IMG/VR virus record: IMGVR_UViG_3300044846_003325
Location: 1 to 20,377 of that record
DNA length: 20,377 bases
Source of the DNA: a virus
Strand: one strand, 5' to 3'
The stretch's first letter is position 1. Each line of letters starts with the position of its first letter. Made by a program: the position numbers and the translations under genes. The notes beneath the pieces are model-generated. The model was not told the origin of the DNA. It saw only the letters and a program-made list of their open reading frames with translations, and made no database searches. This document shows positions 1-19,847 of this stretch, one piece after another.

Positions 1-194
1 GCTGCTAAATTGATGTCCCCCGTCTGAACTTGATCTAAAATTTGTTCGTAAAAATTTGTTCCAAGGGTCTCTTGGATAAAAATGATTTGACCTTGTTGGA
101 TTGCGTATCTTAACTCACCCTTGTCGATATTCGGATCCAAAGGTGAATTGTCGATGAGTCTCTGCTCAGAGATTAAAAGGACATTATAGTTCAT
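1..194 (-). CDS. Head-tail connector-like protein (C-terminus beyond left edge)
   Basis: The first 64 codons of a gene run off the left edge. The start ATG at 194-192 overlaps the portal stop codon by one base (TAATG), so the two are translationally coupled. The visible N-terminus begins MNYNVLLISEQRLIDNSPLD and continues with an IQQGQ...LGTNFYEQIL segment. From memory this resembles the small head-tail connector proteins that directly follow the portal in many Bacteroidota phages (pattern LISE-R-L, then IQ-AQ, then LGT-LY). Position after the portal fits a neck or connector role. The assignment rests on a partial sequence, so the fold is inferred and not shown. Confidence 0.6.
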   Translation of the reverse strand, partial: MNYNVLLISEQRLIDNSPLDPNIDKGELRYAIQQGQIIFIQETLGTNFYEQILDQVQTGDINLA

Positions 195-1270
195 TAGGAG
201 AGGATTTTGTTTTGTTGAATATCCAACACAATTTCTTGCTCGGGATACATCAACTGAAGGATTGGTTTAATCTCAGAAACGAGGAATTCTTGTAATGGGA
301 AAATTGTCGTTGTTTGGAACAACTTGTATGCAGTTTCCAATTGCTCTGCTTGTGATGAAAATCCCGTTGGAGATGGTAAACCTATAAGTGATGGGTCAGG
401 GATTTTATGACCTGCGAGAATGTTCTCTCTAACTAATCCAAATATTTCAGAGAACATACCCTGATTTAAGGTTTGATTGATCTGTGTGATCTCAGGTTTT
501 TCTCCATCAGCACCACCCCAAGATACAATAATACGACCTGAATTTTTGCTTCCTACGTAACGATCCTCGAGTCTTTGTAGGATGTTCTCCTGTTCGTTTT
601 GTGAATCAGGTGCGGACTCAGGGAAGTGTACCCACAGTGAAGGTGAAGCACCATTAGAAATGTTTGATAAATTGAACTCAGAAATTGCTCTTGATAAACG
701 AATATCAAGTAACGATGCGGTGTAGTCAGGGGTTCCGTAGAAAATGTAACCAGGTTGGTATGACTTGATATGGACGATTTGACGAGAAGTATACTCGTTT
801 GGATTGAACTCTTTCAGTTCAACAATTCCGCTTTTTTTCCACATTCCCCAATCATGACAGAAGAACCAAGTATCGGAATACAACTCAGCATTTTCAGGTT
901 GTTTTGCTCTCATGTACTTGGAGGGGATCACGTGGAATCCTGAGATACCCTGTGACCTATCTTTTTTCCATACGATTTCAAGGAACAAATTTCCCGTCAC
1001 GATCAGTTCCCAAAACATCTGTTTAATGACCTCATTTAACGTCTCCTTTTGATTGATACGATAGTCGACAGTAAATCCCTTACCTGCTGAGTTATCTACT
1101 TTAGAACGAATACAAGCATTGTGAATTGGAGAATAATCAACATACCAATAGAAACGATCTACCTGCATATTGTCAAGACCCCATCTTACGAAAGGTTCTC
1201 CTTTATACATCTTTTCTTCCCATCGTTCCAAATTGGAAACTGAGAAATCCATTGAGTCAATTTTAATCAT
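194..1270 (-). CDS. Phage portal protein
   Basis: A 358-aa protein with the hallmarks of a short, PBSX-type portal, the dodecameric ring at the capsid vertex through which DNA is packaged. Visible signs are an N-terminal WY-DYSPIHNACI segment, a central YYG/FYGTPDY-like stretch (YIFYGTPDYTASLLDIRLS), an N-N-S-NGASPS motif, and a C-terminal SPTGFSSQAEQLETAYKLFQ segment before a final I-P-Q-F helix; this order is typical of portals. I chose the ATG at 1270-1268 (MIKIDSMDF). It overlaps the end of the upstream 148-aa gene by 8 nt. A longer reading from 1309 would add 13 unlikely residues lying inside that gene. The connector gene follows with a 1-nt overlap. Its place far downstream of the capsid genes is unusual. 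Confidence 0.9.
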   Translation of the reverse strand: MIKIDSMDFSVSNLERWEEKMYKGEPFVRWGLDNMQVDRFYWYVDYSPIHNACIRSKVDNSAGKGFTVDYRINQKETLNEVIKQMFWELIVTGNLFLEIVWKKDRSQGISGFHVIPSKYMRAKQPENAELYSDTWFFCHDWGMWKKSGIVELKEFNPNEYTSRQIVHIKSYQPGYIFYGTPDYTASLLDIRLSRAISEFNLSNISNGASPSLWVHFPESAPDSQNEQENILQRLEDRYVGSKNSGRIIVSWGGADGEKPEITQINQTLNQGMFSEIFGLVRENILAGHKIPDPSLIGLPSPTGFSSQAEQLETAYKLFQTTTIFPLQEFLVSEIKPILQLMYPEQEIVLDIQQNKILS

Positions 1271-1709
1271 TGTCTGGGTTGTATATGATAAATATATCGT
1301 CCGTTCCACCCGTGTAGGTTATTGGGACATTTTGATTAGTTCCCACCAAATAAACCAAGGTTTGATAAACCAAACCACTACTTAAAGCAGGGTCAAGATT
1401 GGTGTTAGACAATTGCTGATAACAACTCAGTTCGTATTGTCCTGGTATTAAATATACGTTGGTTTCAGAACATCCTGTAGCACCAGTTAAAACTTGTGGG
1501 ATAGAATCGTCAGTATTGATACAAAATAGATCGTATGCGGGGGTATATGAAACTGAAGGTTGTAAACGGAACGGAATAAAATTATACGGAGTATTAGACA
1601 ACTTGTGAGTCATCTTCCATAGATAATAGATCGTTCCTCCCGTTAAACTTGAGTTACGGGAACACACTGCTGCTGCTTGTGTGGTTACTCCTTGAGTTAG
1701 ATAAATCAT
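1263..1709 (-). CDS. Conserved phage structural protein of unknown function
   Basis: A 148-aa protein starting MIYLTQG, with a beta-rich composition, an NTPYNFIPFRL segment near residue 40 and an IPGQYELSCYQQ segment near residue 95. This arrangement (LT-G start, then a P-Y-F-F strand, then L-PGQY-Y-IY) recalls a small protein often found near portal and neck genes in Bacteroidota and aquatic phages, whose function I do not know. The ATG at 1709 lies 12 nt after the stop of the fibre gene, and the 3' end overlaps the portal start by 8 nt. Virion neck or fibre attachment would fit the location, but there is no direct evidence. Confidence 0.7.
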   Translation of the reverse strand: MIYLTQGVTTQAAAVCSRNSSLTGGTIYYLWKMTHKLSNTPYNFIPFRLQPSVSYTPAYDLFCINTDDSIPQVLTGATGCSETNVYLIPGQYELSCYQQLSNTNLDPALSSGLVYQTLVYLVGTNQNVPITYTGGTDDIFIIYNPDND

Positions 1710-1721
1710 TCCTAAAGATTA

Positions 1722-3659
1722 TTATAAGAAATCAGGAATTTTTTGACCGAAGATTACTGCTCCGAAGACCTCGAATCTCCATAGGTCAGTTCCATTATGT
1801 GTTGCGTTATCGTCACCTTGAGACCAAAGGATTCCATATCCTGATGGTGCTACCCAAGTTATGTCGTGTACTCCGTTATTTTTTGACTTCAAAATAAAAC
1901 TTGCACCATCTGTCATACCCGTCAAAGTAACGGTAGTATTAGCACTTAATGCAACTTGACCTTTCGAACCATCGTTGATGTTAAAGGTGTATCCTGTGGT
2001 TGTAACATCAGTCTGAACCTCGGTAGAAATTCTTCTGTAGATATGTAGGTTTTCCGTATAAGTTGTATCGGACGTAGTTAAAGTTCTACCAATTAAACCA
2101 AGAGGGACTTGATTAGAACCAGAACTAATTGTAGTTCCACTACCACCAATTATTACATTTCGAGCGGAATTGATATTAGTTATACTCGAACCTATGGACG
2201 CAAGAATGGTATTGTAATCTCCGTCTATAATTGTACAAGAATCTGAAGCAATAATCTCTGCGTTGAATGTATTCCCTGTAATTGTATTTTGAGTTCCACC
2301 CAAAATTTGTCCTAAACTACCACCTGAAATTGTGTTTCGATTACCACCACAAATTAACGAAGAATCGGTATCGAGAATAGTTCCCGATAACGCTCCAATA
2401 ATTGTGTTTCTTTCATCGGTTCCTGTAGGGGTTTCAATTGATGAACTATCTGAACCTATAATGGTAAAGTAAGTACCCCCACTTAATTCACAGAAATCCG
2501 ATGCGATAATTGAAGAAGCGTCACAACTCGTAATGTTATTACTCAAACCATTGAAAATTGATGATTTCGCTGAATTTTGTATAACACCCGAATCCGAACC
2601 AATCAAGGATGATAACTGTGTTCCCGTGTCACCTGAAATTCTTGAGTTTGCGGAACCCAAAACAAGTGAACGTCGTACGTTACCATTGATGTTAGAATTG
2701 CTTGACTGAATCAAACTATTACTTATACCCGTGGAATTTATTGTGTTACCTGTACCCCCAAGAACGAGAATAAAATCACCGGGGTTATCGATGGTATTTC
2801 TTCCACCAATTACAACTGATTCCGCACCAACTTTTGTGTTAACGCTATTTCCTGTCGCTGAGATAAAGATTGCGTTATTTGCGCTACTTCCCAAGTCAAC
2901 GGTCTGGTTTGAAATGACGATACTACCCTGACTTCTTGAGGTGATGTTTGAACCAATGTTAATTTGATTTGGTGCACCACCCAAAATTTCGTTGTTGTAA
3001 CCAATTGATACAGAATAATTACACTGACCACCAGTTTTACCAATATCATTAGTAGAACCCAACGCGATTGAGTTTTCACCATCAACATATAGAAGTGCTC
3101 CAATTGCACCTGCATTTGTTCTGTCACTGAAAATGTTGTATCCAATTGAGAAACCATTATTTCCCGCAGCGACGTTTCCTGCACCAATTGCGGTACAGGT
3201 ATCCCCTATAGGTCGTGCAGAACGACCAATTGCAATACCATCGGTCAGAGCAACTGCGTCATAACCAATCGCAATACCATAGTCACGAATTACACGAGCG
3301 TCAGTTCCAATTGCAATTCCATCTTGGGATTGACTCAAGTCAGTATTTGCTCGAAGACCAATTGCGATGTCCCTCTCTCTTGCAGCGTATGATTGTTGAC
3401 CAATCGCAATACCAGATTCTCCTGTTGAATCGGAACCATTACCAATTGATATGGAATTATTACCACCCGCAGTAGAACCCGATGCTGTTAAAAAGTCATT
3501 GGATTTAATTGAGTTGGTTCCTGACCCTCTGGTCATACCCAAAACATATTCCAATTGAGACTTGTTGCTGACTGTCTCACCTGAATTGTTGATTATCAAC
3601 CACGATTCAATGGAGTTGGTCGTAGTTGCTGTTAGTTGTGAAATTTTTAAATTCGACAT
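1722..3659 (-). CDS. Tail fibre/adhesin with YadA-like head repeats
   Basis: A 645-aa protein. Residues about 66-240 are a run of YadA-type head repeats, 14-16 residues with a recurring A-IG/S-IG core (SISIGNGS, GIAIGQQS, DIAIGLRA, GIAIGTDA, GIAIGYDA, GIAIGRSA). In trimeric autotransporter adhesins these form a left-handed beta-roll. Residues about 240-530 continue as degenerate Ser/Asn/Gly-rich I-I-G strands, likely a trimeric beta-structure. The final ~100 residues (from DTTYTENLHIY) look like a fibre C-terminal domain. The N-terminus MSNLKISQLTATTTN resembles phage fibre anchors. The start at 3659 was chosen because it follows the upstream stop by 10 nt with an A-rich leader; a start at 3710 would overlap that gene. 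Host-surface binding is inferred. Confidence 0.75.
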   Translation of the reverse strand: MSNLKISQLTATTTNSIESWLIINNSGETVSNKSQLEYVLGMTRGSGTNSIKSNDFLTASGSTAGGNNSISIGNGSDSTGESGIAIGQQSYAARERDIAIGLRANTDLSQSQDGIAIGTDARVIRDYGIAIGYDAVALTDGIAIGRSARPIGDTCTAIGAGNVAAGNNGFSIGYNIFSDRTNAGAIGALLYVDGENSIALGSTNDIGKTGGQCNYSVSIGYNNEILGGAPNQINIGSNITSRSQGSIVISNQTVDLGSSANNAIFISATGNSVNTKVGAESVVIGGRNTIDNPGDFILVLGGTGNTINSTGISNSLIQSSNSNINGNVRRSLVLGSANSRISGDTGTQLSSLIGSDSGVIQNSAKSSIFNGLSNNITSCDASSIIASDFCELSGGTYFTIIGSDSSSIETPTGTDERNTIIGALSGTILDTDSSLICGGNRNTISGGSLGQILGGTQNTITGNTFNAEIIASDSCTIIDGDYNTILASIGSSITNINSARNVIIGGSGTTISSGSNQVPLGLIGRTLTTSDTTYTENLHIYRRISTEVQTDVTTTGYTFNINDGSKGQVALSANTTVTLTGMTDGASFILKSKNNGVHDITWVAPSGYGILWSQGDDNATHNGTDLWRFEVFGAVIFGQKIPDFL

Positions 3660-3669
3660 TTCTTTTTCT

Positions 3670-4701
3670 TTATAGGTTTGGACCAAGCAAGTCACCCTGC
3701 TCAGTTTCAATTATGTCTCCGTTCTCAAACAATAAATAATCGAATGCTGCTGAACTTGGTGTAACTGACGGAGTAAGAGTTATGGTTGGAGTCACAGAAG
3801 GACTTAGGGTAATCGTCGGGGTTACCGATGGAGTTACCGATGGAGTGAGTGTTATGGTTGGAGTTACCGATGGAGTGAGTGTTATGGTTGGAGTTACCGA
3901 TGGGGTCGGAGTGCTCGTCGTACTTGGAGTAGGACTCGGTGGAATCACACAATCATTCCAATCTTGTGTTGTGAATTCCCATTGACCCGTCTGACCACTC
4001 CATGTACAATCTACCACCAATGCAGTCGCAGATGGGGTCATACTTGGAGTTATCGAAGGAGTAACGCTATTTGTTGGGGTATTCGATGGAGTCACCTGAG
4101 GTGAACTTGTGTTTGTTGGTGTATTCGAAGGAGTAGTCGGTGGGGTTGTAGACGGAGTAACCGTATTAGTAGGAGTGTTCGAAGGTGTATTTGGTGGAGT
4201 TCCTGTTGGGGTTAGGGTATTGGTAGGAGTATTGGAGGGTGTATTCGGTGGGGTTCCCGTTGGGGTTAGGGTATTAGTTGGTGTATTCGAAGGAGTATTC
4301 GGTGGGGTTCCCGTTGGGGTTAGGGTATTAGTTGGTGTATTCGAGGGAGTATTCGGTGGAGTACCCGTTGGGGTCAACGTATTAGTTGGAGTGTTCGAAG
4401 GAGTATTCGGTGGGGTCGTAGACGGAGTGACCGTATTAGTTGGAGTGTTCGAAGGAGTATTCGGTGGGGTTCCCGTTGGGGTCAACGTATTAGTTGGAGT
4501 GTTCGACGGGGTAACTGGTGGGGTCGTAGAGGGTGTTAAAGTGATAGTTGGGGTAATACTCGGAGTCGGTGTAGGACTTGGGGTCACAGATGGACTTGGA
4601 GTAGGAGATGCTCCCTCAAACCTCACGATAATATCCAATAATGCTCTATTCTCCCCCAAGTAGTTGGAGAATTTCTTATTCAGAAATACTTTATTACCCA
4701 T
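3670..4701 (-). CDS. Thr-Pro-rich repeat virion protein
   Basis: A 343-aa protein. A short N-terminal module (residues 1-31, [20 protein letters not shown] onward) is followed by a very long Thr/Pro/Ser/Asn linker. Residues 64-189 are seven 18-residue repeats of the type [19 protein letters not shown] small two-Cys segment (near 227-252, CTW-GQ-GQWE...W-DC) interrupts the linker. Residues about 263-315 form a second repeat of the type [10 protein letters not shown]. The C-terminal tag [18 protein letters not shown] is a motif I have seen at the ends of phage surface proteins. No catalytic residues are visible. It is probably an extended fibre, stalk or decoration, and the linker may be glycosylated or flexible. 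Function is inferred from composition and neighbours only. Confidence 0.65.
3757..3915 (-). repeat. [10 protein letters not shown]-encoding repeat
   Basis: Short tandem coding repeats inside the 343-aa gene. The amino acid units [10 protein letters not shown] recur about five times over residues 263-315. On the plus strand the phrase GTTATGGTTGGAGTTACCGA recurs exactly twice (3850-3900), so copies are nearly identical at the DNA level. Confidence 0.8.
4135..4512 (-). repeat. Seven tandem 54-bp coding repeats
   Basis: Seven in-frame units of 54 bp encode the 18-residue repeat [18 protein letters not shown] and its variant with VTPSTTPP in the 343-aa protein. Two partial units follow at lower coordinates (to about 4042). 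Neighbouring copies are very similar but differ at scattered third positions, so they diverged under protein-level constraint. Unit number could vary between related phages. Confidence 0.9.
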
Positions 4702-5774: not shown

Positions 5775-6863
5775 TTAATATGTGTTTCTTGAGAGAGTTG
5801 TACTCCAAGTGTTTATTATATTGCTTAAGGTCAACATTTCTGAGTTATTAAGTACTTTGGACATAAACATAAAACCATATGAATTACTTGAAAATTGACC
5901 AGCAATACCTGAAGAATTTATAGCACCGAAATACAATTCATCTGTACCCCAAGAATCAGAACCTAAAGTGTCTGTATTTTGTTGGATTCCATTTTTCCAA
6001 ATTGAATCAACTCCACCTGACCTTCTTCCCATATAAAGACCTCTTGAATCAGAAGTTGCGATGGTTACAGAACCACCACCACCAAATTGGAATAGTGCTC
6101 TTGTTCCAAAATATTCTCTTGGAACTAAATAACTTGTTCCATTTCCAAGTAAAGAACCTTGAGCATTCAATGTTTGACTGTAACCACCAAGGACACGCAT
6201 AGTTGACTCCTGAGTTGAAGACATGTGTGTTTCCGCGTAAGAATTTGTTCCGTTTCCTGTTACTCCACTGACACCGAATGACCATCCACCAAAGAAGGTC
6301 AATCTATACGCACCATCGGTGTCAATTGGATTTTTCGCATTGAATTTACAACCTGATGAATTACCACCTAAAAGTGGGTAGAATGCGATTATTTTGTCAT
6401 AAAGGTTGTTAGATACCAAAGAGGTAAATAAAGTTGTTGTTGCTGCGGAAACAGTGGATGTAATTCCTGTTCCTCCCGCATCAACGACAGCACGTAAATA
6501 CGTATTTGCTTCAGTTGTTCCACTCGCAAGAGCACTACTCGAAGGACTCGGGGTCATCGTAATTGTCGCAGTGATACTTGGTGTTATTGATGGGGTAACC
6601 GTATTAGTCGGAGTTATACTCGGAGTTATACTCGGGGTAATACTCGGGGTTACCGTATTTGTTGGGGTAACACTCGGGGTTACCGTGTTGGTTGGGGTTA
6701 CAGAAGGGGAGGGAGGTGGACCATCGGTCTTAAACACATTCGCAACCCAATGGGTATCATGAACTTTTTGACCTAATGGACGCAACGCATCCTGTAAGTC
6801 AAACTCACGTTTTTTTATCTGTATTTGATTGATTGGTCTATATGATTTTCCGTTCCACTTCAT
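5775..6863 (-). CDS. Virion surface protein: anchor, Thr-Pro linker, lectin-like domain
   Basis: A 362-aa modular protein. Residues 1-48 (MKWNGKSYRPINQIQIKKRE, then DALRPLGQKVHD) look like a conserved virion-anchor module that I have seen in aquatic phage surface proteins. Residues 51-108 are a Thr-Pro-Ser linker of [16 protein letters not shown] units. Residues about 113-362 form a beta-rich domain with a LamG/concanavalin-like feel (DKIIAFYPLLGG near 155, then YMGRRSGG, and a final helix with LNNSEMLTLSNIINTW), as in carbohydrate-binding decoration domains. Translation starts 21 nt past a terminator-like hairpin (6884-6910), so its expression may be lower than that of the MCP and 184-aa genes. 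Confidence 0.65.
   Translation of the reverse strand: MKWNGKSYRPINQIQIKKREFDLQDALRPLGQKVHDTHWVANVFKTDGPPPSPSVTPTNTVTPSVTPTNTVTPSITPSITPSITPTNTVTPSITPSITATITMTPSPSSSALASGTTEANTYLRAVVDAGGTGITSTVSAATTTLFTSLVSNNLYDKIIAFYPLLGGNSSGCKFNAKNPIDTDGAYRLTFFGGWSFGVSGVTGNGTNSYAETHMSSTQESTMRVLGGYSQTLNAQGSLLGNGTSYLVPREYFGTRALFQFGGGGSVTIATSDSRGLYMGRRSGGVDSIWKNGIQQNTDTLGSDSWGTDELYFGAINSSGIAGQFSSNSYGFMFMSKVLNNSEMLTLSNIINTWSTTLSRNTY
6540..6713 (-). repeat. Thr-Pro linker repeats in the 362-aa gene
   Basis: In-frame imperfect repeats encode TPTNTVTPS and ITPSITPS units (residues 51-108). The same codon pattern appears in the 343-aa gene (4135-4512), so this is a dispersed coding repeat shared by different virion genes. 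Confidence 0.8.
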
Positions 6864-6920: not shown

Positions 6921-7475
6921 TTACAATTCGACAGTAATACCTGTGAAAACATCCTGTAAGGTTGTACCTGCTGGGACCAAGATTTCTTGGGTAGCAAATG
7001 GTTCTCCTCCTTGGATTGTTAACGCATTTAATCCGTTAAGATCTGTATACGCTTGACCTGTAGAAATACCTCCCGAAACGACCATCGCTCCGTTGGTCCA
7101 TGCACCTGTGAAATAGCGTGAATTATTGTCACGGATTACAAACACAATATTATTTTGACCTACAAGTGCGTTAAAAACATTACGCAAATCTTTGTCAAGT
7201 CTCGGTAAATTCATCACCAAAGTTGGTGTGAATACTACTGAAGAACTTGTGGTATTGACTGCGATGTCTTCTGTGAAGGAACTTCCTTGTTTTGTTAATT
7301 GAAATTGGTATAAGATTCCTGTTCCTGATGCTGACACAACTTGGTCATCAACATTACTCGTAAAACCGCTAATAGCAGCAGACGAAGAACCCCCCAAAAT
7401 CCATACAGTTGAGATACCTCCAGTAGACGCAGTTCTGCAGTCTAAAGTATATCCTGAACTTATAAAGCAACTCAT
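6921..7475 (-). CDS. Virion structural protein (tail tube or capsid-associated)
   Basis: A 184-aa protein starting MSCFISSGYTLDCRTASTGG. From memory this N-terminal pattern (MSC-I--GY-LDCR---GGI--V-) is typical of a small structural protein downstream of the MCP in Bacteroidota phages. The remainder alternates hydrophobic strands with Gly/Ser/Thr turns and includes a strand-rich LPRLDKDLRNVFNALVGQN segment, compatible with a tail-tube or head-decoration fold. It is separated from the MCP stop by 85 nt and followed by a strong hairpin, as expected for an abundant virion protein. Whether it is the major tail protein cannot be settled from sequence by eye. Confidence 0.7.
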   Translation of the reverse strand: MSCFISSGYTLDCRTASTGGISTVWILGGSSSAAISGFTSNVDDQVVSASGTGILYQFQLTKQGSSFTEDIAVNTTSSSVVFTPTLVMNLPRLDKDLRNVFNALVGQNNIVFVIRDNNSRYFTGAWTNGAMVVSGGISTGQAYTDLNGLNALTIQGGEPFATQEILVPAGTTLQDVFTGITVEL

Positions 7476-7560: not shown

Positions 7561-9042
7561 TTAGTAAGAAACTGTGAATGATGCGACGTCAAAAACACCG
7601 ACTCCATACGTAGCATGAAGGTTAAGTTTTATCACATCTTCGAATGGATCATAAAGCGCTTTTTGAGTCATCATTTCTGCATTCATACCTACCATGATAT
7701 ATTGTGCTGGTCCTGCGACATATCTACTTAATCCAGTGAGTCCCTGAGTAGGAATTACACGCACATTTGATGCAGGTAGCATTACACCCCAATCTGACCC
7801 TTCAGTAGCACTGTAAGTATTGTCAGTAAATAGATTGATGAATGAGTTATTTCTCATAGACGCAACGAGTGCTCTATAGTCAGAAAAACCGCAATAAATT
7901 ACGAGGTCATCTCTGTGAAGAATGTTCTCATCCATTTCTTGGTAGATAGCGGTAAACACGTCAAGACCATTGCTCGCAGTTGCTGCGGTGTATGCGATGT
8001 AATTAGCACCATTTCCGGTAGTAATTAAACCATTCACACCCATGAAACATTGGTTGCTATAAATTGTTGAACCAGTTGCGGTAGTATTTCTCCACAATTG
8101 TAGTTCGATTTGATTCGCTGTTCTATTAGCGATATCCTGAAGAATAACCTCTTCAACATTTTTGTTATCGTGGGGACTCTTTATTCCTCACTTCACTACC
8201 TTCTTTTAGTTATACGTAGTGCTCAGACTATATCATCAATCTCAGTTGTTTTTGAGATTGTCGGGTGCTCGTGTCAGGATTATCGATTGTGATTCTCACC
8301 TGTTAGTCGTTGAACGTTTCTACTACTTTTATTCACTTTCGTAGACTTCGCTGCTGATTGTCCTCTTCAGGGTTTCCCAGCAATTCACCCGATTTTACTT
8401 CCGCTTAAATGGTTAACGGAACGCTCTCATGGAAATTCGCATCAGTTAAATACTGAGACAAATATGTATCGTATAGATCATCATTTTTGTTATCGTGGGG
8501 ACTCTTTATTCCTCACTTCACTACCTTCATTTGGTTATTCGTAGTGATCAGACTATATCATCACCTTTTTATCGGTGTCGGGTGCTCGTGTCAGGTTTAT
8601 TGAGTGTGATTCTCACCTGTTAGTCGTTGAACCTTCCTACTACTTTTATTCACTTCGTAGGATCGGATGCTGATTGTCCTCTTCAGGGTTTTCCAGCAAT
8701 TCTCCCGATTTAATGTCCGCTTGATTATACCGTCAACGGACAGAGTTGCTGATTGACTTTCTTGTTACATAGGTCAATTGTTACAACATTCTGAACGGTG
8801 CTACCTGTCGGATCGAACCCACACGAGAGACTTTGTAGGATAACGTCGTTGGTAACGAAACCTACCTTCTCGGTTGTTCCCTTCAAATTAGGTCTTACAG
8901 AACTGTATTTTGGAAGAGTCAAACCAAGGAATGCTTTGATCATCATTTCGTCCCCGTAAGAATTGTACGTAGGTAGATTTGAAAGATCATAATTGAAGTT
9001 GAAGTTAGATGCTTCACCCTTCTTTTTAAAAGAATTTTTCAT
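7561..9042 (-). CDS. Major capsid protein, interrupted by two group I introns
   Basis: HK97-fold-type capsid subunit, in three exons: 9042-8736 (307 nt), 8481-8416 (66 nt) and 8156-7561 (596 nt). They sum to 969 nt, or 322 aa plus TAA. Exon 1 starts MKNSFKKKGEASNFNFNYDL and ends at ...QQLCP plus one base. The mini-exon supplies YDLYDTYLSQYLTDANFHES and VP. Exon 3 resumes with FEEVILQDIANRTANQIELQ and LWRN. The joined VPFEEVI...ANRTANQIE...LW segment matches a motif I know from phage MCPs (PFEE, then a QIE--LW helix). All three frames join without a gap. Unspliced, exon 1 runs into TAA at 8725-8727 (105 aa). The scaffold gene ends 19 nt upstream of the ATG, and an A-rich leader takes the place of a Shine-Dalgarno site. 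The 178-aa reading from a TTG at 8097 and the 105-aa ORF are fragments of this one gene. Confidence 0.9.
8157..8415 (-). ncRNA. Group I intron 2 of the MCP gene (ORF-less, 259 nt)
   Basis: Begins after the T at 8416 and ends at the G at 8157. P1: exon end TTCCGT (8421-8416) pairs with the guide GCGGAA (8404-8399), giving the canonical U.G pair at the splice site. P10: exon 3 start TTGAA pairs with TTTAA just before the guide. P7: GACTA (8308-8304) pairs with TAGTC (8230-8226), inside R-like GTTCAACGACTAA and S-like GATATAGTC. P8 is an eight-pair hairpin (8260-8237), and a P9-type stem pairs 8221-8216 with 8199-8194. P/Q-like GAATTGCTGG and AATCAGCA are present. It encodes no endonuclease, so it would depend on self-splicing and could not home by itself. 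Subtype is not assigned. Confidence 0.92.
8416..8481 (-). other. 66-nt mini-exon of the MCP gene
   Basis: Lies between the two introns and encodes two bases of a Tyr codon, 21 codons (DLYDTYLSQYLTDANFHES, VP) and the first base of a Phe codon. Its length is a multiple of three and both flanking introns are in phase 1, so omission would keep the frame and delete 22 residues. Confidence 0.88.
8482..8735 (-). ncRNA. Group I intron 1 of the MCP gene (ORF-less, 254 nt)
   Basis: Begins after the T at 8736 and ends at the G at 8482. P1: exon end TGTCCGT (8742-8736) pairs with the guide GCGGACA (8720-8714), seven pairs ending in the U.G at the splice site. P10: TGAT at exon 2 bases 2-5 pairs with ATCA near the guide. 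P7: GACTA (8625-8621) pairs with TAGTC (8555-8551). P8 is CACC/GGTG (8577-8574 with 8565-8562), a different sequence from P8 of the other intron but still paired. The P9-type stem pairs 8546-8541 with 8524-8519. No reading frame of note lies inside. Confidence 0.92.
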
Positions 9043-9061: not shown

Positions 9062-9817
9062 TTATCTTAATGATTCTCTAAGGAATCTTACTTTTGCGTC
9101 GAGGATATTCTCCTTACCAAAAGTTTTTTTTGCGACTGGAGATTGGTGAACAGGTGAGTTCTTGAAACCCTCGTAGTCTTTTTTCATTTCGCTAAGATCA
9201 GCAGAATATTTCTGCATCATCTTCAGCATTTCACCCATTGCTTCTTTCATTTTTTTGAGGTCAGTTTCTAATGATCCTTCACCTGCTTCGTCGGGGTATT
9301 TCACTCCAGTTATAACTCCTTGAGAATCAACCACTAACGTGATTCCTGATTCTGTGGTATGCTCACCCTCAGGTGCGCTTACGCGCTCCCCTGCTTCTGT
9401 GATTACATAGAGTTTCTGACCAACTGCGAAGTCTCCTTCTTCGTCGGTCTCTACCTTTGTTCCATCCGTTAACGTTGCTGATGAAAGAACTTCAGTATCA
9501 ACCTCAACATCTGTCGATGCTTCGTTGACTGGTGATTCTTCTGTCTCTACTGCTTCCTCCTCGATTTTCGAGATTATTGCATCTTCACCCACGGTTAGGA
9601 TAATACCTTCACGTGTGCGATGTGATCCACTCGGAGCAGGTTTGAGAATTGAATCCTCACCCACAACATAAAGCATTTCACCGATGGTGAATGGACCTTC
9701 TTGGTTATTAGTCACTTCAGTTTCTCCGTCAACCAATTTGGTGACCATAAACTTTTCTGACTTAAACTTGAGACCCAAAAGATCAGCGATTTTGTTGATT
9801 GCTTCTGTAGCGTTCAT
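9062..9817 (-). CDS. Capsid scaffolding protein
   Basis: A 251-aa acidic protein located between the prohead protease and the MCP, the usual place for the scaffold that templates procapsid assembly and is then degraded. Residues 26-85 and 115-173 are two copies of a small beta-rich module (pattern T--TDGE-EV...EG-F-IG--LYV...AP-G-H-T--GI-L-V...I). They are joined by a Glu/Val-rich acidic linker (86-113). Residues about 184-217 (LETDLKKMKEAMGEMLKMMQ onward) form a heptad-type coiled coil. A basic C-terminus (AKKTFGKENILDAKVRFLRE) probably contacts the capsid protein, as in other scaffolds. The ATG overlaps the protease stop (ATGA). Confidence 0.8.
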   Translation of the reverse strand: MNATEAINKIADLLGLKFKSEKFMVTKLVDGETEVTNNQEGPFTIGEMLYVVGEDSILKPAPSGSHRTREGIILTVGEDAIISKIEEEAVETEESPVNEASTDVEVDTEVLSSATLTDGTKVETDEEGDFAVGQKLYVITEAGERVSAPEGEHTTESGITLVVDSQGVITGVKYPDEAGEGSLETDLKKMKEAMGEMLKMMQKYSADLSEMKKDYEGFKNSPVHQSPVAKKTFGKENILDAKVRFLRESLR

Positions 9818-12423
9818 TCGTCTATTTGTTTTAGAATGTTGATTATGCTTGACAATAAATAGTCATCCTTGGATTGACGTGAAAAGTTCAGTATGAAGTT
9901 ACCCTCAACTGACGCTCCTTTTACCTTTCCAGGTTTGATGTATTCATTCCAAACGGTGTCTCCTTCAGGAGTATCAAGGACTTTGTAAGCACCCATCCAT
10001 GTACCTGATGGGACTTGTTCTTGAGTGAATCCTAATTGATATGCTTTGTCGTTTTCTCCCTCTACAATCCATGACTCTACCATGACAATGTCGTTGAACT
10101 TTTTTTCAGAGTGTTCGTAGTTTGTCATACGACCTCTGAGTTGGATCATAAACTTGTCACGGATTTGTCTGATTGAATCGGGGGTGAATTTTACGAAGTA
10201 TTTTTCGTTGCTTACCTCGTCGAAACGAGGTATTAGAATGTTAGGTATCATCAGTGGAGTGTAAATCATTCTCTTATCCTGATCTGCTGCGAATACCTGA
10301 CTTTTTTGTTCGTTGAATTGTAGATCACAAACCCCACCAAAACATTGACTGAATTGCTTGTCATTCATGTAAGTTCTTGAAAGGTTTGCTTGATAACGAG
10401 CAGTACCAGGGTAGTAACCCTTACCAACCATTTCGTGAGGTGCTTGACCAGGTTTTCCCTGAACATATCCATTATCGATTAGTTGGTTTTGTAGTGCGGT
10501 GAATTTTCTCCATGCGTGAATACATTGGGGACCCCCTTTGTATAACCATTTAGAATATCCTGACTGATTATGACCAAATGCTTTGTTCGCACCCTCGAGT
10601 GCGTAGATCTGTGAGATTCTTAGGAACCTATTTTCCAACGACATACAAAAATCTCTGTGGATTTCCTGCGCTGGAATTGCTTTACGAGCGTATTGGTAGT
10701 AGGATGTTTGGTTTTTGTGGTTCTGTTTTTTTACCTCATTCTCGGTGAATCCTCTGAGCAATGGACTGGTGATCGCTTCAAACTCCTCTCGGGTTTGATT
10801 TTGGATCATAAAATCAAATTGTTTACGAAGTTCTACTTCCTCAGTTGTCCATTGATCAAGATATTCTTTGATGGTTCTGATATGACCATCCATAAATGAT
10901 ACGTCATGTACCATCCCAACCTCCTCATCAATCTCGTGCATCAGGTCTTTAAAGTCATCAACCAAGATTATTGCTTGATCTAATTGACTTGGGTCACTAT
11001 TACCGTCGTAGATGACGTTTTTCTCGATCTCAAAGACGTTATCAGCAATCTGTGCTGCTGACCTAATCATACCGATCGTTTCTTCGTCTACGGTCATTTT
11101 TTGTAAATGCTCAAAAAGAGCAACCGCACCAGGACACATATCAAAATGTTTGGTTTTGTAACCGTAGATATCCATTGAGAAATCTTGGATACCAAACTCG
11201 TCGGAACATCCACACGAATAATCATCGGTGAGGATTGGTTTTACCAACATTGAATCGGTGTCTCCTGATGAGGGGTAATTCACATATACGGGTAGATCGA
11301 GAATGTAGTCGAATCTCATACCAACATCCCCCAACATAAATCTCACACGAGGATCCATATCATAGTGACGTTGTATACCAAGTTCTTTAATCTTATCTAC
11401 TTTTTCTATGACGTTTCCTTCTGTTAAAATTCTCCAAGTAGGGATTTGATATTTTAAACTAAAATCGACCAAATCATCTGTCATCCTTGGTAGATCGGAA
11501 ATGATGTAGATGCGTGACCCACGAGACAATTCATTCTCAAACGCACGGATACCTCTTGGGGTGTCCAATGTATTCCTCCATTCGAACGATACCTTTGCTC
11601 CTGAGAACTCACGATTTTCCCACATTCCATAACATTGAGCGAGTGCTTGGTCTTCGGTCTTACCTTCGTTTCTAACGACCGCTACACAACGAGCAATAAA
11701 GTCGTTCTGTGTTTCACCAGCGTTGGGGTATACAAAATTTTCAGGTTTTTGGATCTTACGTAAGTTATCAACATACTGACCCACAATTTTTTTTTCTGCG
11801 GTCTCAATCAGAGCAACAGGACGTTCTTCGGTTGCAGTCAAGGTAAAATCTGTATTGGGGACATTGACCTCACCTTGAGTTCTTAAATCGGTAATCTGAC
11901 CACGTGCTCTATCGTCTCCTTCTCCACGACCACCGTAAGTCCAAGAGACATAATCACCAACAGAAAATCCACCTGCGTTGTCCACAAAATCTTGAATTCC
12001 CATGTCTTGTTTAGATTCTTCTTGAGCAATGATTTTATCCACCCAAGTGAGTGCTTTTTTTCCCCCCCAAAGTCCCATCGCGATGGTTCCATTGTCGTCC
12101 CAATTTCCTGTGTCGTAGGTAGCAGCACGAGACAAAAACGACTTCATTCTTTTAATCGTTTCCAAACTGAGATTTTCACCCTGACACAATTGCTGTGCGC
12201 GAACTTTCCCGACCTGAGTCCCCGCAGGGTTTCCTCGTTTCTCGTTTTCCTTGATCGCTTGACACGCTTTTTGTTGGACGTACTCAGGAGCAACAAAAAA
12301 ATTGTGCTTCGCAAAATACATTAGTTCTTGCTCAATTGCAGGATACTCTACCCATGCGACTTCAAAAACACCCGTGTCTGCTGACATTGATGGGTCAATT
12401 TCAAGTTCGATTACCTTATACAT
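9814..12423 (-). CDS. Multidomain capsid maturation protein with C-terminal XkdF-type protease
   Basis: An 869-aa protein with several modules in order. Residues 48-135 resemble a phage segment rich in K/R-AQ-L--G--LS-ETIKRM-SFL-R. Residues 152-207 (SVGDYVSWTYGGRGEG... to RPVALIET) look like a DUF2945/TUDOR-like domain. Residues 227-270 match the PNAGETQNDFIARC...EDQALAQCYGMWEN type. Residues 278-370 look like a HAD-like domain with an altered first motif. Cys/His positions (C404, C406, C430) suggest metal binding. Residues 620-645 contain GGPQCIHAWRKF. Residues about 705-850 carry the XkdF-type prohead protease signature (VESWIVEGENDKAYQLGF, then GTWMGAYKV, then GKVKGASVEGNF), with His771 and Ser784 as candidate catalytic residues. 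It precedes the scaffold and MCP, as a maturation protease should. Its length greatly exceeds a single-domain protease. Confidence 0.75.
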   Translation of the reverse strand: MYKVIELEIDPSMSADTGVFEVAWVEYPAIEQELMYFAKHNFFVAPEYVQQKACQAIKENEKRGNPAGTQVGKVRAQQLCQGENLSLETIKRMKSFLSRAATYDTGNWDDNGTIAMGLWGGKKALTWVDKIIAQEESKQDMGIQDFVDNAGGFSVGDYVSWTYGGRGEGDDRARGQITDLRTQGEVNVPNTDFTLTATEERPVALIETAEKKIVGQYVDNLRKIQKPENFVYPNAGETQNDFIARCVAVVRNEGKTEDQALAQCYGMWENREFSGAKVSFEWRNTLDTPRGIRAFENELSRGSRIYIISDLPRMTDDLVDFSLKYQIPTWRILTEGNVIEKVDKIKELGIQRHYDMDPRVRFMLGDVGMRFDYILDLPVYVNYPSSGDTDSMLVKPILTDDYSCGCSDEFGIQDFSMDIYGYKTKHFDMCPGAVALFEHLQKMTVDEETIGMIRSAAQIADNVFEIEKNVIYDGNSDPSQLDQAIILVDDFKDLMHEIDEEVGMVHDVSFMDGHIRTIKEYLDQWTTEEVELRKQFDFMIQNQTREEFEAITSPLLRGFTENEVKKQNHKNQTSYYQYARKAIPAQEIHRDFCMSLENRFLRISQIYALEGANKAFGHNQSGYSKWLYKGGPQCIHAWRKFTALQNQLIDNGYVQGKPGQAPHEMVGKGYYPGTARYQANLSRTYMNDKQFSQCFGGVCDLQFNEQKSQVFAADQDKRMIYTPLMIPNILIPRFDEVSNEKYFVKFTPDSIRQIRDKFMIQLRGRMTNYEHSEKKFNDIVMVESWIVEGENDKAYQLGFTQEQVPSGTWMGAYKVLDTPEGDTVWNEYIKPGKVKGASVEGNFILNFSRQSKDDYLLSSIINILKQIDE

Positions 12424-18326: not shown

Positions 18327-19847
18327 TTAACAAGGACCACCGATCACACATACAAGAACTACGTTTGCTCCCGATGAGTTGTAGATATTCCCCCCATCCA
18401 CGAAGTCACCTGTGAATGGTGATGTCAGACTTGGTGAATCGTAAAGTTGAGTGTCGTTATTTGTTATGTCCGTCACATCACAAGTGGTGTAAACGGTAAT
18501 TGGTGTTGAACCTTCACAAGCACAAATACCACCTGAACAACTACCCGCACATTCGTTGATGTTCCAACTCTTAAAACAACCAGGAGTTGAAGATGGTGTC
18601 GGGGTCAATGTTCTCGTTGGACTTGGGGTGGGTGTGGATGTTATACCACAAGGACCGAGAGTTTCGATTATCACCTCAGGATCCGAGATTGGTGAAATAC
18701 AAGAACACACCGCATAAATCACGGTTTTCTGTATTACCAAATTTTGGAATGCTCCTGTGTTACAATTTTGAATTGTGATTGTCGTAGATGAACTTGCACC
18801 TGTGTATTCAACAGTATATTCTGTACACCCTGAACAAACAGGTGTGGTGCTTGGAGTGGGTGTGGGACTCGGAGTAATAGAACCTGAAGTAGGACTTGGG
18901 GTCGGTGTAGGACTCACAGGAATTGGAGTTGTAGCACCTTCAAACACACCATATAACTGAACGGTATATTGTTCTGTATTGGGTGGAAAATAAGGGACGT
19001 TCAAAGGACCTGCTCCAACATACATCGTGTTGTATTCTGTCTCCCCACTGATGGGATCGATCAAGAAAAGTTGTTGGTAAACCTGATTACAATCTGCTCT
19101 CGGTCCTCCACCATTTGTGGTTATATTGTCCATAGTATAACCCGTGATCAGTGCTCCTTCATCGTCATAGAAATTATACTCAACGTAATAGGGTTCGCTG
19201 AGACCAGTTGTGGTTCCACTCCATAGGTAGTAATTGGTAAATCCCAAGGTATAATATTCCTGATCGGTTATGTCCATGATTCTCGGTGCGTTTGTTAAAA
19301 ACAAACCTGATGTGGTTGGGTAAACCGATAATGGTGATCCTGAAAGAACAAAGGGACCGATGTCAAAATCCTGTTGAGTAGCACGTCCGTTTGTTCCCAT
19401 AGTGGAACGGAAAATTTTATAGTTATCAGATGCGTTTGCTGGAAAACCTACATCGTTGTTAACCCCCGTAAATCCTGTGACTGATCCAATCGCAGAATCA
19501 GAATATTCGTAACCAGCGATAATTTTGTAATTCAGGACTTGGTAGTTCGCAGGTCTTGAGAATCCAATAGTTTGGTGTGTGTAAATCGGAGTTGTGTCCC
19601 AATAAGATATGGGTAAAGAGTCCGTGTAGGTCTCTAAAACTTGTTGTAGATCGACGATCCCCACCCCCGATGGGTTAGGACTACACTTACCTGAAAAGAC
19701 AAGGTTTCCGTCAACTTCCAAATTGTATAGAAAACGAAACTTGAATGTTGACGATGTGTTGTAAGTTGATGAGGACAGGGTAAAAAAGATACCGTCCGAT
19801 AATACGGGTTGAAATTCCGCAGGTGTGTTAGTGTAAATTAAACTCAT
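18327..19847 (-). CDS. Structural protein with Thr-Pro linkers and Cys-rich modules
   Basis: A 506-aa protein. Residues 1-300 form a beta-rich N-terminal part (FKFRFLYNLEVDGNLVFSGK, then PNPSGVGIVDLQQVLETYTD), similar in outline to tail-region proteins of Bacteroidota phages. Residues 307-336 are a Pro/Thr linker, followed by a Cys-containing module (Cys338, 341, 362, 381, 383, 400). A second linker (404-422) is followed by a second Cys module (424, 433, 437, 442, 444, 456, 500, 506). The high Cys content is unusual for this window and suggests extracellular disulfides or metal binding on the virion surface. The start overlaps the upstream stop (ATGA). Confidence 0.65.
   Translation of the reverse strand: MSLIYTNTPAEFQPVLSDGIFFTLSSSTYNTSSTFKFRFLYNLEVDGNLVFSGKCSPNPSGVGIVDLQQVLETYTDSLPISYWDTTPIYTHQTIGFSRPANYQVLNYKIIAGYEYSDSAIGSVTGFTGVNNDVGFPANASDNYKIFRSTMGTNGRATQQDFDIGPFVLSGSPLSVYPTTSGLFLTNAPRIMDITDQEYYTLGFTNYYLWSGTTTGLSEPYYVEYNFYDDEGALITGYTMDNITTNGGGPRADCNQVYQQLFLIDPISGETEYNTMYVGAGPLNVPYFPPNTEQYTVQLYGVFEGATTPIPVSPTPTPSPTSGSITPSPTPTPSTTPVCSGCTEYTVEYTGASSSTTITIQNCNTGAFQNLVIQKTVIYAVCSCISPISDPEVIIETLGPCGITSTPTPSPTRTLTPTPSSTPGCFKSWNINECAGSCSGGICACEGSTPITVYTTCDVTDITNNDTQLYDSPSLTSPFTGDFVDGGNIYNSSGANVVLVCVIGGPC
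18582..18929 (-). repeat. Two Thr-Pro linker segments in the 506-aa gene
   Basis: Coding stretches at 18840-18929 and 18582-18638 specify PTPTPSPT-type linkers that bracket a Cys-rich module. They use the same TPS/TPT codon pattern as the linkers in the 343- and 362-aa genes. Confidence 0.75.

Follow-up and report, generated by a model that had tools for sequence, protein, structure and literature searches.

Split reading frame of the capsid gene

Is the major capsid protein (MCP) gene of this virus broken, or is it a single gene whose pieces are rejoined in the RNA? The DNA studied here is a virus record of 20,377 bases (the window), and an ORF caller does see two broken capsid fragments at its MCP locus, as had been expected of an annotation pipeline. 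The original prediction was that the gene is split by two group I introns, and its junctions, lengths and reading frame proved exact to the base. On the minus strand, exon 1 (8736..9042, 307 nt) runs from the start codon to CCG-U, giving 102 codons plus 1 nt, and is followed by intron B (intron 1; 8482..8735, 254 nt), mini-exon 2 (8416..8481, 66 nt, 22 codons, in frame), intron C (intron 2; 8157..8415, 259 nt) and exon 3, which includes the stop codon (7561..8156, 596 nt). The two outer exons were delimited by the joined frame and by 80 contiguous homologues, the mini-exon by its conservation in homologues, and the introns by their Rfam scores, P1 pairing and covariation. Both introns are inserted directly after CCG-U and end in a terminal G, and an ORF search found no ORF in either, hence no homing-endonuclease ORF of their own. 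Joining the exons (307+66+596 nt) yields 322 codons (102+22+198) with no internal stop, and stops are present in all three frames of each intron. A capsid protein made from unspliced RNA would terminate after residue 105. An intein or a programmed frameshift at the locus is ruled out by the stops in all frames.

We searched the joined protein against 2.9 million viral contigs and obtained 141 relatives. The best 80 of these 141 are uninterrupted over nearly the whole protein and both junctions, at 67-84% identity, and nearly all of these 80 carry LCPY.LYDT and PFE across the junctions. Mini-exon 2 is present and conserved in every aligned homologue. Compared with L003, the closest intron-less homologue, the synonymous and nonsynonymous codon differences were 49 and 14 in exon 1, 12 and 1 in exon 2, and 80 and 38 in exon 3; this exon comparison leaves out L083, a contig with another intron in the upstream flank. 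Judged from these alignments, the MCP gene is intact apart from its introns, and mini-exon 2 is under purifying selection. A second intact MCP gene, which the original prediction had named as evidence against it, is absent from the window, where the tblastn matches are the three MCP exons only.

Identity of the capsid protein and its gene neighbourhood

Sequence libraries were near-silent on the MCP, returning one weak family match (phrog_1623, E 7e-4) and no Pfam match, and tblastn with the window MCP gave zero matches in 50,697 phage records. The protein folded was L003, in place of the window's spliced protein, with a model built on 24 relatives; its mean pLDDT was 58.6, with 78-89 in the core and a poorly modelled N-terminal third. 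Against the PDB, this model had 201 matches at E <= 0.001, headed by phage capsids and encapsulins, and against BFVD it matched viral MCP models (best E 3.6e-18). On the strength of the model, the protein appears to be an HK97-fold major capsid protein.

The structure matches agree with the gene order around the MCP. Immediately upstream lies the UP gene (9062..9817, minus strand, 251 aa), which is kept in the clade and has a scaffold-like position; two genes upstream is a large protein (9814..12423, minus strand) with an XkdF-type prohead protease domain (Peptidase_S78_2, E 1.7e-10). Downstream lies the DN gene (phrog_19091; 6921..7475, minus strand), which is intron-free in the window, and the head-gene context is completed by a portal protein (194..1309, minus strand) and a tape measure protein. 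Relatives of the portal protein reached at most 27% identity among the matches listed. A search for a prophage or host link in 84,980 bacterial and archaeal genomes gave no relative. The window also contains late genes with long repeats of the TPSNTPT/PTPTPS type (3670-4701, 5775-6863 and 18327-19847, minus strand) and YadA-head repeats within 1722-3710.

Group I identity and RNA structure of the introns

The covariance-model search that had been proposed as a check placed both introns above the curated cut-off of the Rfam family RF00028 (50 bits): intron C scored 74.4 bits (E 1.5e-17) and intron B 51.3 bits (E 1.3e-10), with no further RF00028 match anywhere else in the window. A tight degenerate P4-P6 pattern scan gave no matches. 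The elements read from the letters alone, namely a P1 with U.G at the splice site, a P7 of GACTA/TAGTC and a terminal G, are all present in both introns, and the P8 and P9-type stems correspond to helices kept across 19 aligned family members. Each intron folds better than its dinucleotide shuffles, with z about -2.5. Chance can be excluded because of the Rfam E-values together with the 80 homologues that are contiguous across both junctions. The identification as ORF-less group I introns in an MCP gene therefore holds by Rfam, by fold and by homologues.

For the structure test, we aligned 19 introns with their flanks to a hand-drawn P1-P9 structure of 58 pairs that includes the P3/P7 pseudoknot. 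In this alignment 95.6% of the cells are paired and all helices are kept (P3/P7 core, P4-P6, P8 and P9), and both-sided, compensatory changes occur in 28 of the 58 pairs, P1 included. None of 500 shuffles scored as high, and slid versions of the structure were 29-44% paired. RNAalifold, which cannot draw pseudoknots, gave the same helices on its own, except for P7 and a weak P7.2. P7.1 is found in all 19 introns with two covarying pairs, and P7.2 is weaker (77%). Extra P7.1/P7.2 stems between P7 and P3 mark subgroup IA, and introns B and C, which carry them, are of group IA type. The window's intron B has an A.A mismatch within P3.

These results bear on two doubts, that the capsid gene here has decayed or that the contig was wrongly assembled. 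The two broken fragments seen by the ORF caller are what such a locus would offer, but its exons are intact and evolve under purifying selection, compensatory changes conserve the intron structure, and the same elements occur in independent contigs, so that we regard decay or artefact as extremely improbable. What the window contains is very probably a functional major capsid gene of the HK97 fold that has two ORF-less group I introns in it and is spliced to encode one protein.

An intron family around the capsid gene

Further introns were located by pattern scans in an uncultured clade marked by the gene order UP-MCP-DN. In this clade, introns of similar type are found at no fewer than five positions, spread over the capsid gene and the gene that follows it. 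At site A, the insertion follows GGA-U and precedes UU GAC (two contigs); at site B, it follows CCG-U and precedes AY GAY (the window and 14 others), and three contigs with a divergent capsid gene have an intron 4 nt from B. Site C, between CCG-U and UU GAR, is filled in the window and in contig L085. Site E lies near the 3' end of the capsid gene in three contigs (L090, L095 and L100), and site D lies at residue 12/13 of the next gene (DN, phrog_19091) in twelve contigs (L094, L111, L112, L121, L136, L137, L138, L142, L143, L145, L146 and L150), where most introns have a P10 of about 6 bp. In the site-E introns, 24, 34 and 56 nt of 5' segment separate the pairing exon end from the guide, and their exact 5' splice site is uncertain.

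Single occupancy was seen for A in L116, for B in most contigs, and also for D and E. In L083, introns A and B flank an 81-nt exon, and the rejoined exons encode a full capsid protein. The capsid gene of L085, on the minus strand, has group I introns of differing types at 2243-2516 and 3077-3363, one at site C and the other near the 3' end of the gene; our automated core pattern misses the second of them, which Rfam detects. With sites filled singly or in combinations, the occupancy of one site therefore does not predict that of another. Two introns flanking an MCP mini-exon had been called unusual in the original prediction. The arrangement itself stands, but its rarity is weaker than was claimed, given the clade relatives with introns at the same or neighbouring sites, the L083 pair around an 81-nt exon, and published multi-intron capsid genes in crAss-like phages (PMC7886860). 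Capsid genes that carry a group I intron, or several, are already known; the intron family around the MCP is the new part.

Each intron in the family has a guide matching its own site. In the window, the internal guide sequence (IGS) of intron B, GCGGACA, pairs with exon UGUCCGU over 7 bp, and that of intron C, GCGGAA, pairs with UUCCGU over 6 bp. Written as exon/IGS, P1 is GUCCGU/GCGGAC at site B and UUCCGU/GCGGAA at the window's site C, and elsewhere CUCCGU/GCGGAG at site C of L085, GUGGAU/GUCCAC at A and UGGAU/GUCCA at D. At exon position -6, window B has G, window C has U and L085 C has C, and the corresponding guide bases are C, A and G. Half of P1 consists of exon, which makes this helix informative: a change in the exon is accompanied by the matching change in the guide. 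For P10 pairing with the 3' exon, intron C has 5 contiguous pairs and intron B has 4 pairs after a mismatch at +1.

Predicted splicing and the mini-exon

Both introns most likely self-splice, each guided by its own P1. Each would fold into a P1-P9 ribozyme whose IGS fixes the 5' site by pairing to the final 6-7 nt of the exon just upstream, with a weaker P10 pairing to the downstream exon helping to fix the 3' site; guanosine would then start two transesterifications, joining the 102, 22 and 198 codons into one capsid protein of 322 aa. The introns belong to a small family that spreads among the head genes of this phage clade. From structure and comparison, we infer that splicing occurs in vivo and that the introns are self-sufficient.

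If the intron C ribozyme sometimes used 5' site B instead of its own, the 22-codon exon would be skipped and a 300-aa isoform would result. The frame would be preserved, and such skipping is documented in Twort orf142 and in phage SIOphi (PMC11878797). Moreover, IGS C pairs over 5 bp with exon B (-6.3 kcal/mol) versus 6 bp with its own exon (-7.2), so guide C is nearly neutral, separating the two sites by less than 1 kcal/mol, and some skipping through it may be possible. Against this, IGS B favours its own exon by more than 4 kcal/mol (-10.6 versus -6.2), the difference at position -6 gives each guide a mismatch at the other site, and the 22-codon exon is conserved in all aligned homologues, with its 12 synonymous changes versus 1 nonsynonymous change relative to L003. 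Skipping of this exon looks disfavoured, and alternative splicing as a regular outcome seems to us quite improbable.

Origin of intron C

The window's introns B and C are each other's most similar intron (88.8% identity), and their P5 and P9.1 sequences are common to these two alone. A branch with support 93/99 sets them, with the outgroup, apart from the 32 other introns in the tree; the data allow a sister pair of B and C, but this pairing is not among the starred branches. The site-C intron of L085 groups with the site-E introns (100/99), and a single clade of the two site-C introns was rejected (p-AU 0.002). One origin of both is thereby rejected, and site C was therefore filled at least twice; L085, where it was filled independently, is a relative with only about 30% identity. 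The spliced gene contains TCCGT (UCCGU in the RNA) exactly twice, at sites B and C. On these grounds we favour, as the rather likely origin, that intron B was copied into the one remaining UCCGU of the coding sequence to give intron C, whose guide and peripheral stems then diverged. We infer that the copying ran from B to C, and its route likewise.

Introns B and C might instead have come from other phages in separate events, with gene conversion within the genome making them alike afterwards. Such a history would fit the fact that the two are identical over the last stretch and differ in their 5' parts and P8; introns of this family do move between phages, and two older introns so converted would show an equal similarity of B and C. 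No other C intron was found in the window's MCP subfamily, however, and the sole other one, in L085, is of a different intron lineage, which leaves separate gain with conversion somewhat unlikely.

For a copy of B at site C, one route would be that intron B RNA reverse-spliced into the other UCCGU of its own capsid message and was then copied to DNA. We hold this route to be doubtful. That the guide was later changed at -6, a change that would also have separated the two splice sites, is a further part of the same reading and is just as doubtful. The presence of UCCGU at both B and C fits a guide-directed route but is no proof of one, because any viable insertion needs it: the capsid gene would be lost if an intron inserted where P1 could not pair, and survivors would therefore look alike under any route. 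If true, reverse splicing here would give a clearer natural example than any other of a group I intron transposing ectopically inside a protein gene of a phage.

Movement of the introns between phages

In eight contigs the introns are identical, yet the adjoining exon varies at 36 of 89 third codon positions. Constraint alone is insufficient to explain identical introns, because across the rest of the family 123 of 244 intron columns are variable. Introns in this family thus move or undergo conversion.

What mobilises them could be a homing endonuclease acting in trans (collaborative homing), as opposed to reverse splicing or simple recombination. Phages offer a precedent for collaborative homing (PMC3984707), lateral movement is indicated in the eight-contig set, and the flanks closest to the insertion site are the most similar there. 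In more distant pairs, however, we saw no clear co-conversion tract, and 20 records (the window and 19 related ones, mostly fragments) held no HNH (PF01844) or GIY-YIG (PF01541) match over the curated cut-off. We treat homing in trans as a possibility, somewhat less likely than not.

Comparison with known split genes

As in the Cluster J mycobacteriophage LittleE, an intron (most likely group I there) interrupts the major capsid gene, but LittleE has one 819-bp intron with an endonuclease ORF, whereas here there are two ORF-less introns of about 255 nt; removal of the LittleE intron was established by RT-PCR and N-terminal sequencing of the virion protein (PMC3706429). A capsid intron is also documented for the lactococcal phage Tuc2009, as cited in that paper. 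The MCP of the crAss-like phage Zeta group is similarly split by group I introns, its ORF lying in five fragments, but of its four insertions, three carry coding sequence for intron-type domains, and splicing is predicted (PMC7886860). Several group I introns per gene are likewise found in Staphylococcus phage Twort (orf142) and in the Bacillus phages phiNIT1 and SIOphi, but the genes concerned differ from ours (tail tube, reductase, terminase or polymerase); phiNIT1 has a small exon flanked by two introns, and exon skipping, observed in that group, may be possible in the window MCP (PMC11878797). The huge gut 'Jug' phages also have numerous group I introns that are short, about 206 nt on average, and metatranscriptome reads confirm some of them, but the split genes described are terL, nrdD and DNA polymerase, and here it is the capsid gene (PMC12363816). 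Fungal rDNA offers a parallel in related group I introns that occupy different sites and share only 4-8 nt of 5' exon, for which spread by reverse splicing was proposed; unlike those rRNA genes, ours encodes a phage protein, and a likely donor site and a likely recipient site lie together in it (PMC1299323).

Gene callers will report the capsid proteins of this clade as broken. The family bears on how ORF-less group I introns reach new sites and makes a good natural test: one gene holds both a likely donor site and a likely recipient site, the guides have several specificities, alleles without introns exist, and movement has been recent. The host gene is an abundant late gene, in which mis-splicing should be costly, and the family is at odds with the proposal that phage introns settle mostly in genes of nucleotide and DNA metabolism (PMC11878797).

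An intron-packed capsid gene in a different phage

A different phage, the 279-kb record IMGVR_UViG_3300044846_005229 (L087), has an intron-packed capsid gene on the minus strand at about 5451-73. It contains about a dozen group I introns, with 11 Rfam matches over the cut-off, and a similar gene is present in L107. Read by hand, its exons are as short as 5 and 10 nt; exons 2-8, joined by hand, are 91% identical to uninterrupted homologues, excluding 4 boundary residues and the last few. The known relatives of the protein are annotated as major capsid protein, and its last exon gives a match to phrog_1005 (major head protein). Two of the insertions have ORFs that resemble homing endonucleases by eye.
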